DNA from: Lachnospiraceae bacterium
Lineage (GTDB): Bacteria > Bacillota > Clostridia > Lachnospirales > Lachnospiraceae
Assembly (NCBI GenBank): GCA_017561085.1
Contig: JAFZDQ010000022.1
Location: forward strand, 1-40,265
Direction of reading: 5' to 3'
DNA length: 40,265 nucleotides
Of the stretch, positions 36,757 through 40,265 are shown piece after piece. The number at the start of each line of letters is the position of its first letter. Within the stretch, counting starts at the first letter, position 1. The translations under genes and the position numbers were made by a program. The notes beneath the pieces are model-generated. The model did no database searches, was not told the origin of the DNA, and saw only the letters and a list, made by a program, of their open reading frames with translations.

Positions 36757-39411
36757 ATGAGACAATTCACATCAGATGAGTTAAGAAAAACCTGGAAAGA
36801 ATTTTATATTGCCCGCGGACATAAAGATGTAGGAGCTGTTTCCTTAGTTTCTGACGGTTCCACTGGCGTACTTTTCAATGTAGCAGGTATGCAGCCCCTG
36901 ATGCCTTATTTGCTTGGCCAGAAGCACCCTATGGGTACAAGACTTTGCAATGTACAGGGTTGTGTACGTACCAATGATATTGATTCCGTTGGTGACAAGA
37001 GCCACGTTACCTTCTTTGAAATGATGGGTAGCTGGAGCCTTGGTGATTATTTTAAAGAAGAACGTTGCAAATGGAGTTACGAGCTTTTAACGGAAGTGTT
37101 CGGCTTTGATGCCGACCACCTGGCAGCAACCGTATTTGAGGGTGATGAAAATGCGCCCAGAGATGAAGAGGGTGCACAGTACCGTATTGCTTCCGGCTTC
37201 AAGAAAGAAAATATTTACTATTTACCTGCAGAAGACAACTGGTGGGGACTTGAATACGGCCCCTGTGGTCCTGACAGCGAAATGTTTTATATTGCTGACA
37301 GACCGGACTGTGGTCCTGATTGCGGACCGGGCTGTTCCTGCGGTAAATATACCGAGCTTGGTAATGACGTATTTATGCAGTATGAAAAGCATCATGACGG
37401 CCATCTGACACCCCTTGCAAAGAAGAATGTAGACACCGGTTGGGGTCTGGAACGTATTTTGGCATTCTTAAACGGAAGCAGGGATGTATATCAGATTGAT
37501 CTTTTTGCACCGGTAATTGCTTATATTGAAAAGGTATCCGGCTTAAAATACAACGAAGACGAGAAGATGACACGTTCCATGCGTATTTTAGCAGACCATA
37601 TCCGTACAAGCGTAATGTTAATCGGTGATGAAGCGAAGTTACTTCCTTCCAATGCAGGTGCCGGCTACGTGCTTCGCCGTTTGATCCGTCGTGCCGTAAG
37701 ACACGGACGTACCTTAAAGCTTGCTACTGCAGATTTACTGAAGGTTGCAAGTCTTTATATTGATGAAATTTATAACGAAAGCTATCCTTTGTTAGTAAAG
37801 AACAGGGAATATATCCTGACAGAACTGAAGAAGGAAATTGCGCGTTTTGAAAGTACCCTTGAAAACGGTATGAAAGAATTCCAGAAGATTCTGGAAGCAA
37901 AGAGAAAAGAAGAAAAAGATGAAATCGACGGTAAGAGCGCATTTTATCTGTATGATACCTTCGGATTCCCTATCGAACTTACGGTAGAACTTGCAGAAGA
38001 AGAAGGACTTAAGGTAGATGAAGAGGGCTTTGTAAAAGCGATGGAAGAACAGAAACAGAAAGCAAGAGAAAACCAGAACTTCTCTGCGAAGTTAAATGTA
38101 GGGGCTGACCTTGCAGGTGAACTTTCTTCCGAAATTACCAGTGAATTTGACGGTTATGATAAGTTGACCGTTGAAAGCGAAATTACCGCACTGATTTCCG
38201 AAACAGAAATCTGTAACACCCTGGCAGAAGGACAGAAGGGTACCTTAATCGTACCTGTTACTCCTTTCTATGCGACCATGGGCGGACAGAAGGGCGATAC
38301 CGGTGTGATTACTACCGCAAACGGTTCCTTTAAGGTTCTTGATACCGTGAAACTGACCGGTGACAGAATCGGACATATTGGTGAGGTGGTATCCGGAAGT
38401 GTAAGCGTTTCAGAAAAAGCTACCCTTTCCGTAGATACAGAGAACAGAATGAGTACCTGTAAGAATCATTCTGCAACCCACTTATTACAGAAAGCATTAA
38501 AAGAAGTGTTAGGTGACCATGTAGAACAGCAGGGCTCCTATCAGGATAGTGCAAGAACCCGTTTTGACTTCAGCCATTCCCAGGCGATGACTGCGGAAGA
38601 AATTTTAAAGGTTGAACAGATTGTAAATGCACAGATTGCTGCAAATCTTGCTGTTGTAACCGAAGAAATGAGCATTGAAGATGCTAAGAACAAGGGGGCT
38701 ATGGCACTGTTTGGTGAAAAGTACGGCGAAAGCGTAAGGGTTGTATCCATGGGTGATTTCTCTATGGAACTTTGCGGCGGTACTCATGTGAAGAATACCG
38801 GAGATATCGCATTCTTCAAGATTTTATCCGAAAGTGGTGTAGCTGCCGGTGTCAGAAGAATTGAAGCATTAACCGGAGCCAACGTTATGGCATATTACAA
38901 GGAAATGGAAGAGAACTTCATGCAGGCAGTAAGTGCTGCGAAAGCAACTCCTGCAACCCTTTCCGAAAAGATTAAGTCCATGCAGGCTGAAATGAAGACT
39001 ATGTCTTCCGAAATCGAATCCTTAAAGAGCAAAGCAGCAAAGGATGCACTTGGTGATGTTATGAATCAGGTAGCAGAAGTAAAGGGCGTGAAATTGCTTG
39101 CAACTAAAGTATCCGGCGTAGATATGAACGGACTTAGGGATTTAGGCGACCAGTTAAAGGCAAAAATCGGAGAAGGCGTAATCGTACTGATTTCCGATGC
39201 TGACGGTAAAGTAAACATGGTAGCTATGGCAACCGATGCAGCAATGAAGCAGGGCGCACATGCAGGAAACCTGATTAAAGGAATTGCAGCCCTTGTAGGC
39301 GGTGGCGGCGGCGGACGTCCTAATATGGCACAGGCCGGCGGTAAGAATCCTGCGGGAATTGATGCTGCACTTGCTGAAACAGCCAAAGTATTGGAAGGAC
39401 AGCTTGCATAA
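36757..39411 (+). CDS. alaS: Alanine--tRNA ligase
   Basis: AlaRS charges tRNA-Ala and clears mischarged Ser and Gly. The ATG at 36757, ten bases after AAGGAG, gives 884 residues. A GTG six bases earlier is also possible. The catalytic domain has CVRTNDIDSVGD, TFFEMMGSWSLGDYF and VDTGWGLERILAFLNG. The editing domain has the zinc set HSATHLL and CGGTH. The C-Ala part ends with a glycine run (GGGGGGRPN). A cysteine-rich insert in the catalytic domain (Cys185, 189, 193, 195) could bind a metal. The catalytic core is divergent from the usual bacterial form. It follows glyS by 18 bases. No clear terminator follows it. Confidence 0.96.
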   Translation: MRQFTSDELRKTWKEFYIARGHKDVGAVSLVSDGSTGVLFNVAGMQPLMPYLLGQKHPMGTRLCNVQGCVRTNDIDSVGDKSHVTFFEMMGSWSLGDYFKEERCKWSYELLTEVFGFDADHLAATVFEGDENAPRDEEGAQYRIASGFKKENIYYLPAEDNWWGLEYGPCGPDSEMFYIADRPDCGPDCGPGCSCGKYTELGNDVFMQYEKHHDGHLTPLAKKNVDTGWGLERILAFLNGSRDVYQIDLFAPVIAYIEKVSGLKYNEDEKMTRSMRILADHIRTSVMLIGDEAKLLPSNAGAGYVLRRLIRRAVRHGRTLKLATADLLKVASLYIDEIYNESYPLLVKNREYILTELKKEIARFESTLENGMKEFQKILEAKRKEEKDEIDGKSAFYLYDTFGFPIELTVELAEEEGLKVDEEGFVKAMEEQKQKARENQNFSAKLNVGADLAGELSSEITSEFDGYDKLTVESEITALISETEICNTLAEGQKGTLIVPVTPFYATMGGQKGDTGVITTANGSFKVLDTVKLTGDRIGHIGEVVSGSVSVSEKATLSVDTENRMSTCKNHSATHLLQKALKEVLGDHVEQQGSYQDSARTRFDFSHSQAMTAEEILKVEQIVNAQIAANLAVVTEEMSIEDAKNKGAMALFGEKYGESVRVVSMGDFSMELCGGTHVKNTGDIAFFKILSESGVAAGVRRIEALTGANVMAYYKEMEENFMQAVSAAKATPATLSEKIKSMQAEMKTMSSEIESLKSKAAKDALGDVMNQVAEVKGVKLLATKVSGVDMNGLRDLGDQLKAKIGEGVIVLISDADGKVNMVAMATDAAMKQGAHAGNLIKGIAALVGGGGGGRPNMAQAGGKNPAGIDAALAETAKVLEGQLA

Positions 39412-39456
39412 GTATATGCTAAGTGCCACCAATTTAGGTTTATTTCAAAATAATTG

Positions 39457-39484
39457 TTGACTTGCGGATATTTTGTGTTATAAT
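39457..39484 (+). promoter_or_regulatory. Promoter of rpsU
   Basis: TTGACT (39457-39462) and TATAAT (39479-39484) are 16 bp apart. A leader of about 78 bases precedes the start codon. Confidence 0.82.
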
Positions 39485-39524
39485 CTAACTTGTGCATATT
39501 GTGATGCATAAATAAAAACCCAAT

Positions 39525-39548
39525 CAGTCAAGAAACTTGAAGGGACTG
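39525..39548 (+). promoter_or_regulatory. Hairpin in the rpsU leader
   Basis: CAGT-CAAG (39525-39532) pairs with CTTG (39536-39539) and, across a five-base bulge, ACTG (39545-39548), with a three-base loop. It lies about 20 bases before the start codon, next to GGGAGG, and could take part in autoregulation. No known leader class was recognised. Confidence 0.4.
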
Positions 39549-39568
39549 AAGGGAGGTCAGGTGTAAGA

Positions 39569-39745
39569 ATGTCAAACGTAATCGTAAAAGAGAACGAGAC
39601 TTTAGATAGCGCTTTACGTCGTTTCAAGAGAAGCTGCGCAAAAGCTGGTATCCAGCAGGAAATTCGTAAGAGAGAACACTACGAAAAGCCCAGCGTAAGA
39701 CGTAAGAAAAAATCTGAAGCTGCAAGAAAACGTAAATACAACTAA
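39569..39745 (+). CDS. rpsU: 30S ribosomal protein S21
   Basis: S21 is a small basic protein of the 30S platform that helps initiation by exposing the anti-Shine-Dalgarno end of 16S rRNA. The 58-residue product starts [21 protein letters not shown] and ends in a strongly basic tail ([15 protein letters not shown]), normal for Firmicutes. GGGAGG lies upstream of the ATG at a slightly long spacing (about 12 bases). It has its own promoter and terminator, so it is a single-gene unit, although readthrough from alaS is possible. Confidence 0.97.
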
Positions 39746-39755
39746 TGTAAGAATG

Positions 39756-39787
39756 AAGACTCCGAAGTTTTTTCGGAGTCTTTTTTT
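39756..39787 (+). terminator. Intrinsic terminator of rpsU
   Basis: AAGACTCCGAA (39756-39766) pairs with TTCGGAGTCTT (39772-39782), and the T run reaches 39787. Confidence 0.93.
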
Positions 39788-39789
39788 GC

Positions 39790-39935
39790 GCAGCTCGCGG
39801 AAAGGAAATTGTCGCTTCGCGACTCGCTCGCGCGCGGAGATTGCGCGAAGACGCAATCTCAATCAGAAGCAGCTCGCGGAAAGGAAATCAGCCGTAAACG
39901 GCACCGCGCGCGCGCGTGAGATTGCGTATACAATC
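39790..39935. repeat. Two diverged copies of a GC-rich modular hairpin repeat
   Basis: Two units of about 75-79 bases stand in direct repeat immediately after the rpsU terminator. Each starts with the identical 20-mer GCAGCTCGCGGAAAGGAAAT (39790-39809 and 39869-39888). A small hairpin with different sequence follows in each (GTCGC-TTC-GCGAC at 39811-39823; GCCG-TAAA-CGGC at 39891-39902). Then comes an alternating CG tract (39829-39836; 39905-39916) and GAGATTGCG (39837-39845; 39918-39926). In unit 1 this last block has a perfect partner CGCAATCTC (39852-39860). In unit 2 only GATTG/CAATC pairs (39920-39935). The GC content stands far above the surroundings. No coding sequence is visible in the 39746-39998 gap. 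Confidence 0.85.
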
Positions 39936-39998
39936 GAATTCTTTTTTGAAATTTGGCAGCATAATATGGTAGTAGAATCCATAGAGGGAGATTTGGTT

Positions 39999-40265
39999 GT
40001 GAAGAAACGATTAATCAGATTATTATGTTGTGCTTTTTGTGTTATGTTCCTATTTATGAATACGCTTCACGTAGTTGCGGCAGAGGATGTTTTTGCCGGG
40101 ACAGGGTCGGAAAATGCAGGAGAGAGTTCTGATGCAAAGGAAATAACGATGCCGGCGATATCCGGAGTAGAAGCCCCTTCTTACATACTTATGGAGGCGT
40201 CAACGGGACAGGTGATTTGTGAGTATAATGCAGATGAGAAGAGAAGTCCCGCCAGTATCACGAAG
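39999..40265 (+). CDS. D-alanyl-D-alanine carboxypeptidase (S11 family), N-terminal part cut by window end
   Basis: This is a penicillin-binding protein of the DacA/DacF type that trims the terminal D-Ala from peptidoglycan stems outside the cell. The start is GTG at 39999, eight bases after GAGGGAG. The 89 visible residues hold a signal peptide (MKKRLIRLLC, hydrophobic core, cleavage near VVAAED). A low-complexity Glu/Ser linker follows, and then the start of the S11 domain (SYILMEASTGQVICEYNADEKRSPASITK). The last four residues visible are the catalytic SxxK motif (SITK). The rest of the gene lies outside the window. The promoter is not clear. Confidence 0.9.
   Translation, partial: MKKRLIRLLCCAFCVMFLFMNTLHVVAAEDVFAGTGSENAGESSDAKEITMPAISGVEAPSYILMEASTGQVICEYNADEKRSPASITK

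Follow-up and report, generated by a model that had tools for sequence, protein, structure and literature searches.

A dispersed, fold-conserved repeat of Lachnospiraceae found behind transcription terminators

Group IIC introns insert just behind intrinsic terminators, and REP sequences diverge between species. In the parts of the literature drawn on here, REP, REPIN and BIME elements with their RAYT transposase are described as short, intergenic, palindromic, high in copy number and often paired, and REPs as carrying a single-stranded tag that is conserved, with a bulge next to the stem (PMC8266576, PMC3733652). The BOX, RUP and SPRITE elements of pneumococcus are, in the sections of the source used, folded and interspersed repeats that are probably parasitic and may influence co-transcribed genes; BOX is modular (boxA-boxB(n)-boxC), BOX and RUP have terminal inverted repeats, and SPRITE is itself terminator-like (PMC3049150). 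By the partial descriptions at hand, bcr1 and other repeats of B. cereus are confined to that group and measure 100-400 bp, insertion of bcr1 is guided by TTTAT, and those passages on bcr1 are silent on terminator docking and covarying stems.

The repeat described here, from Lachnospiraceae, is likewise short, palindromic, intergenic, high in copy number and paired. It differs from REP, REPIN and BIME in having two or three hairpins within 75-90 nt, in being docked at terminators, and in lacking both a GTAG/CGTC tag and, in the own genome, any RAYT match, RAYT also showing no association with copy number. By eye, both of our alignments (A1 and A2, below) have a 5′-terminal ATGCGC and, ahead of hairpin 1, (A)AGGAA, and no conserved GTAG or CGTC at the hairpin foot. 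Because tag and transposase are both lacking, the repeat cannot be assigned to REP, and the mobile REP-like family proposed in the initial annotation holds as an analogy and fails as a membership. The pneumococcal elements resemble it as folded interspersed repeats of a Firmicute, whereas it lies behind host terminators rather than being terminator-like as SPRITE is. With group IIC introns it shares the insertion site; unlike them it is small, has no intron domains by eye, gave no Rfam match, and occurs in a genome with no RVT_1 match. The TTAT found here is only a resemblance to the TTTAT of bcr1, compared by description. Our best reading, by analogy, is that the repeat would work like REP/REPIN, bcr1 and BOX elements.

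The comparison literature, consulted in part, was PMC8040213, PMC3733652, PMC3049150, PMC6542083 and PMC8266576. A search that covered few subscription papers and no bioRxiv preprints found no description of the repeat, which is possibly among the 3161 supplementary candidates of PMC8040213.

We give a probability of roughly two in three to the reading that this is a non-autonomous REP- or MITE-like mobile repeat of Lachnospiraceae, recognised by its fold, that integrates directly 3′ of terminator hairpins at the T-run. If that is true, a major group of gut bacteria has a family-wide class of small repeats that exchange nearly all of their letters yet keep fold and docking site constant, which would amount to a natural covariation experiment for finding the fold recogniser. 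Landing behind a terminator would add DNA without breaking genes, the origin of some ribosome-binding sites might be explained, and RNA-motif screens could mistake mobile DNA for candidate structured RNAs.

The rpsU locus and the architecture of the repeat

The window is the whole 40,265-nt stretch analysed; it is contig C23 of a 2.96 Mb assembly of 131 contigs with a completeness of ~96%. Two direct units of the repeat stand directly 3′ of the terminator T-run of a gene that we take to be rpsU, a name that goes back to the initial annotation. R1 is the covariance model introduced below.

39569..39745, + strand: rpsU (presumed), ribosomal protein S21, 58 codons, host gene upstream of the repeat; read from the sequence, below the 60-aa limit of the ORF listing
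39757..39787, + strand: intrinsic terminator of rpsU, hairpin GACTCCGAA/TTCGGAGTC and T-run; docking site of unit 1 (class A)
39786..39861, + strand: repeat unit 1, complete; R1 84.2 bits, E 1.9e-16 (own genome)
39788..39800, + strand: unit 1, 5′ arm of stem 1, GCGC-A-GC-TC-GCGG, overlapping the 20-mer
39801..39810, + strand: unit 1, one-sided bulge with AAGGAA, letters conserved where the stems vary
39811..39823, + strand: unit 1, hairpin 1, GTCGC-TTC-GCGAC
39824..39835, + strand: unit 1, 3′ arm of stem 1, TCGC-TC-GC-GCGC, most of the CG-alternating tract
39837..39860, + strand: unit 1, hairpin 2, GAGATTGCG-CGAAGA-CGCAATCTC
39865..39942, + strand: repeat unit 2, tandem follower with decayed hairpin 2; R1 54.8 bits, E 2.1e-9
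39891..39902, + strand: unit 2, hairpin 1 of an alternative type, GCCG-TAAA-CGGC
39904..39916, + strand: unit 2, 3′ arm of stem 1 and CG tract; CGCGCG, against CGCTCG in the C131 allele
39918..39935, + strand: unit 2, degenerate hairpin 2, GATTG-CGTATA-CAATC

The initial annotation had seen two direct units sharing a perfect 20-mer, a hairpin, a CG-alternating tract and a GAGATTGCG block, and all of these are present. The 20-mer, GCAGCTCGCGGAAAGGAAAT, occupies 39790-39809 and 39869-39888 (spacing 79), the CG tracts 39825-39837 and 39904-39916, and the block 39837-39845 and 39918-39926. What changes is how the parts relate: the 20-mer combines the bulge with the 5′ arm of stem 1, whose 3′ arm is the CG tract, and GAGATTGCG forms the 5′ arm of hairpin 2, which unit 1 has intact and unit 2 in decayed form. 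The order of parts within a unit is AT-GCGC-A, 5′ arm of stem 1, (A)AGGAA bulge, hairpin 1, 3′ arm of stem 1, GCGC and hairpin 2; the full layout has in addition an upstream hairpin and a T-run before ATGCGCA.

The 20-mer is not confined to the rpsU locus. At up to three mismatches the genome holds 42 matches (20 forward, 22 reverse), against 0 for the reversed pattern. A third exact copy lies on contig C131, of which positions 1-431 (L003) overlap the window at ~39835-40265 with several differences; since the differences are few, C131 represents the same site in allelic or strain-variant form, and its 20-mer is no independent copy. The overlap is a sign of strain mixture or of duplicate assembly at what is presumably the rpsU-dacF locus.

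Alignment A1 holds 20 of 30 fetched loci, the other ten having been left out as truncated, as tandem duplicates, for an odd hairpin 1 or 2, or for lying at a contig end. The covariance model built from it, R1, has 58 hits at E<=0.01 in the own genome, its 20 members included, which represent 57 sites (C131:31-104 is the rpsU site again); the repeat is a dispersed family. Our clustering divides the hits into 48 first units and 10 followers, standing head to tail; each of two followers (C92:44388 and C119:8948) is preceded by a T-run of its own and may have inserted separately. By simple text match the 5′ arm of hairpin 1 is GTCG in 27 hits, ATTG in 16, GTTG in 6, GCCG in 6 and another type in 3. 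One copy (L006, G000:C30:28345-28409) has an extra hairpin inside the loop of hairpin 1, with the GTCGC/GCGAC stem retained.

Covariation within and between genomes

From the two units at rpsU it had been proposed that the hairpin keeps its structure through changes of sequence, and covariation bears this out both within the genome and across species. In the 20 copies of A1, hairpin 1 is paired in every cell (100%) with double-sided change in 3/5 pairs, and by eye it folds in most of the 58 hits. Hairpin 2 changes on both sides in 8/8 pairs, with 89.2% of cells paired. Stem 1 is uninformative on A1 because none of its pairs changes on both sides. The folding energy of a 160-nt stretch is not significant (z -1.07, and -0.81 for the other strand); the structure rests on covariation, not on folding energy.

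In comparisons across the family, different but still complementary letters take the place of stem 1 and of both hairpins. Among the matches listed, stem 1 in other genomes reads GGCCCGCA, GGGGCGCG, CCCCATGC and others, with matching 3′ arms. Alignment A2 has 48 sequences: 39 of 94 rows found with a pattern containing ATGCGCAG and AGGAA and retained only if well-folding, six own copies, and three from other members of the genus. Double-sided change occurs in 21/29 pairs, and 226 cells are changed on both sides against a mean of 67.6 in shuffles that do not model the relatedness of the sequences, 0 of 500 being as high. In A2, 94.2% of cells pair against 78.5% in these shuffles, a percentage that is partly a selection effect, as is the conservation of ATGCGCAG and AGGAA, because the rows were selected by pattern and fold. 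With the partners shifted by 1 to 3 columns, pairing is <=53%. Independently of the pattern-selected rows, GG stands in the bulge of 55/58 model hits in the own genome. The repeat keeps mainly its fold, its bulge and ATGCGC while the letters turn over.

Two suggestions about individual parts were rejected. The CG tract had been thought able to adopt Z-DNA; it is one arm of a stem, other species have unrelated letters in its place, and a conserved Z-DNA role is therefore unlikely. A coding role fails in that ATGCGC opens a frame in some copies while others stop at once (CGG-TAA in C46, GCA-TAA in G002).

Matched changes in stems can also arise when palindromes are repaired by template switching during replication, with no selection on the fold. 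Whole arms do change together between copies, and tandem units often have common hairpin arms, much as such repair would leave them. It would, however, tend to erase both the TC/TC mismatch of stem 1, kept in 43/58 hits by a loose text match, and the one-sided bulge, which is also kept, and the fold survives total sequence replacement between genera; we regard this explanation as most improbable.

On the mobile-repeat reading, recognition would pass through the folded single strand, that is the stem with its purine bulge and the hairpins, and a trans-acting enzyme or a replication process would do the recognising. The fold would then be kept as unfolded copies fail to multiply.

Position, empty sites and element ends

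The location behind a terminator, noticed at rpsU, is general among the copies of the own genome. The T-run of a terminator hairpin is abutted by 20/47 testable first units, against 317/15,510 random positions in the same loci (2.0%). A further 19/47 come after an A/T-flanked hairpin, in many cases one like TTCATAGGAA..TTCCTATGAA, the random control covering the T-run rule only. The remaining 8/47 fit neither strict rule; seven of them have a hairpin by eye, and one (C27:30312) follows an ORF stop and has no hairpin by eye. Relatives conserve the host terminator of one locus, where an extra hairpin is present only with the repeat, so that this hairpin seems to be part of the insert.

By mechanical ORF calls, the upstream gene is on the same strand for 36/39 first units with a gene within 400 nt, the other 8/47 having no such gene. 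Overlap with a mechanical ORF of >=100 aa was seen for 11/47 first units, and at least one of these ORFs (a 171-aa frame) we read as a start-codon extension; intergenic position was otherwise judged by eye. Integration would occur directly 3′ of the intrinsic-terminator hairpin, at the T-run, and docking would be a target choice and not only survival at such sites; selection against insertion elsewhere could account for part of the pattern.

The main rival of the mobile-repeat reading is a structured RNA element, active in read-through 3′ ends or in leaders, whose AAGGAA bulge and hairpins would act in the RNA and whose copies would be kept for their function; translation, RNA stability, back-up termination and CsrA-type binding are candidate roles. 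Strong covariation together with a sequence-conserved bulge is what such an element would give, the strand agreement with the upstream gene fits it, and in some genomes hairpin 2 is followed by a T-run and is terminator-like. Copies behind terminators, which are many, would by contrast be expected to see little transcription, and the repeat is lineage-specific, being absent at four loci in relatives (below). We judge the RNA explanation unlikely.

Truncated copies touch on the same question. In two loci of the own genome (L026, L028) and three of other genomes (L170, L191, L200), truncated 5′ halves place AGGAA, by eye, in Shine-Dalgarno position just before start codons, which speaks for an RNA role and suggests that the AAGGAA bulge can be reused as the ribosome-binding site of the next gene. 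A copy is also found in an interval of the own genome that we take to be hup-hslR-like (L277 8587-8743), and the truncated copy of L200 precedes a similar gene.

Occupied and empty sites between relatives were found at four loci. For the rpsU locus 37 genomes were searched and 36 matched; 30 loci were fetched, 29 of them from relatives, and the stretch behind rpsU is readable in 28 (L222 does not contain it). None of these 28 has a complete repeat, and both covariance models, R1 and the broader R2, find the two own units and none in the rpsU loci of relatives. By eye, only G006 and G016 have the same gene downstream. In L210 and L219 an apparent upstream-hairpin part stands alone behind the same rpsU terminator, a hint of separate insertions at one site. 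Three further loci, on contig C22, are empty in G006, G016 and G003: both flanks of the second and third locus align in all three genomes, and those of the first in G006 and G003, with the upstream flank only in G016. The unaligned G010 stretches matching these loci gave no hit by either model. Two other pairs (L092/L106 and L109/L202) were rejected as clean empty sites, one partner of each being a truncated copy.

These empty sites are all interspecies, between species ~68-88% identical in aligned stretches, and no strain-level insertion polymorphism was seen. Gain in the source lineage would be the simpler reading; loss in relatives could explain any single locus.

At the 3′ end, many class-A copies of the own genome do not stop at hairpin 2 but continue into another unit, full or partial, that starts GCAGCTCGCGG. 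A match to the copy's own start at a local-alignment score >=20 is found for 15/58 hits (two at a distance) against 4/221 controls. In other genomes a partial follower was seen in 22/103 pattern hits, chance hits included, at a threshold that is weak there, 64/309 controls reaching the same score without a position rule; at a score >=18 the count is 20/103 against 6/309 controls. Many other copies end, by eye, after hairpin 2 with ATT and then unrelated sequence.

A fixed 5′ end at the T-run with a variable 3′ end reaching into a second unit would be the signature of a retro-element, the RNA being copied in trans by a group-IIC-like reverse transcriptase with the terminator T-run as primer. 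The 5′ boundary of class A is indeed fixed at terminator T-runs and its 3′ extension varies; against this, many copies end cleanly after hairpin 2, partial followers are also explicable as remains of ordinary tandem duplication, and the own genome has no RVT_1 match, nor is there an association in 40 genomes (below). A retro-element is in our view very unlikely.

No convincing target-site duplication was found: among 21 class-A copies TTAT stands at the 5′ end of 17, the 3′ end of 10 and both ends of 9, a weak signal because the T-run and a hairpin 2 often ending in TCTT partly explain it. At the 3′ end of the other hits TTAT occurs in 16/37, and in 49/693 control 11-mers. By eye there is no classical TIR, the ends of the repeat being parts of hairpins.

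Distribution and candidate enzymes

R1 found the repeat in 11/24 genomes of the genus, own included, and in 0/16 genomes from other families of the order; within the genus, two genomes have 58 and 51 hits and the others between 0 and 7. R2 was positive in 72/299 genomes of the family, own included, with copy counts that are lower bounds (<=15 candidates scored per genome). In a class-wide sample, with <=11 candidates scored, it was positive in 3/391, all Lachnospiraceae and one of them the own genome, the output being silent on how many of the 391 belong to the family. Twenty stretches from R2-positive genomes show the same layout by eye, in two classes.

Possible drivers of transposition or reverse transcription were sought in three families, Y1, RT and IS110. 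The own genome (~96% complete) has 0 matches to PF01797 (Y1/RAYT), no RVT_1 match and no match to the IS110 transposase, in an assembly so fragmented that an IS could be missing from it. Twenty copy-rich genomes, starting at 5 to 7 hits, were compared with 20 copy-poor ones (no R1 hit in 6, no stricter-R2 hit in 14), some of which, being defined by those searches, may contain undetected copies. Y1 genes (E<=0.001) occur in 10/20 copy-rich and 11/20 copy-poor genomes, RT genes (E<=0.001) in 15/20 and 14/20, one of the latter 14 falling short of the family cut-off; IS110 genes scoring above their family cut-off are present in 12/20 and 10/20. With no match in the own genome and no association with copy number, RAYT, RT and IS110 were rejected as drivers; the driver enzyme may have been lost from the genome or be missing in the assembly. 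A CsrA requirement was rejected as well: CsrA is present in 16/20 copy-rich genomes, leaving four without it, and in 13/20 copy-poor ones, which also weighs against the RNA element.

A new transposition system, with folded-strand recognition, terminator docking, an enzyme outside Y1, RT and IS110, a T-run serving as entry or primer, and head-to-tail copying, is a speculative extension that we think rather unlikely.

A pattern scan of named genomes returned at least 119 stretches, mostly, among the matches listed, from Lachnospiraceae MAGs, several of whose listed matches are truncated or non-folding. Among 80 listed titles five are from clearly unrelated groups (L089, L097, L122, L123, L138) and may be chance matches. 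Carriage by phage or plasmid was not borne out: viral contigs gave four matches to the pattern, and one 111-base copy from another genome had no match in plasmid and phage records at an E limit of 1e-5.

Rfam 15 has no match over the repeat at E<=1 (window 39400-40265), and for 13 loci with other variants at E<=5 none of the 10 matches listed resembled it, coordinates being compared by eye. A T-box leader (L067 1607-1844, - strand; 57.5 bits, below the gathering score of 93) adjoins the repeat in G009.

In several other genera a class with its own upstream hairpin was seen (L251-L260, L263), some members of which have a mini-hairpin, CGC-TCC-GCG or CCC-TCC-GGG, before ATGCGC; its UCC loop could pair with the GGA of the bulge. 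A second modular repeat, with hairpins around TGCCACTGGCA and mostly with GGTCGTTGCTAAACG..CAGCAACC, lies inside the 3′ arm of stem 1 in other Lachnospiraceae (L109, L117, L134, L167, L189), and L117 has two of its modules.
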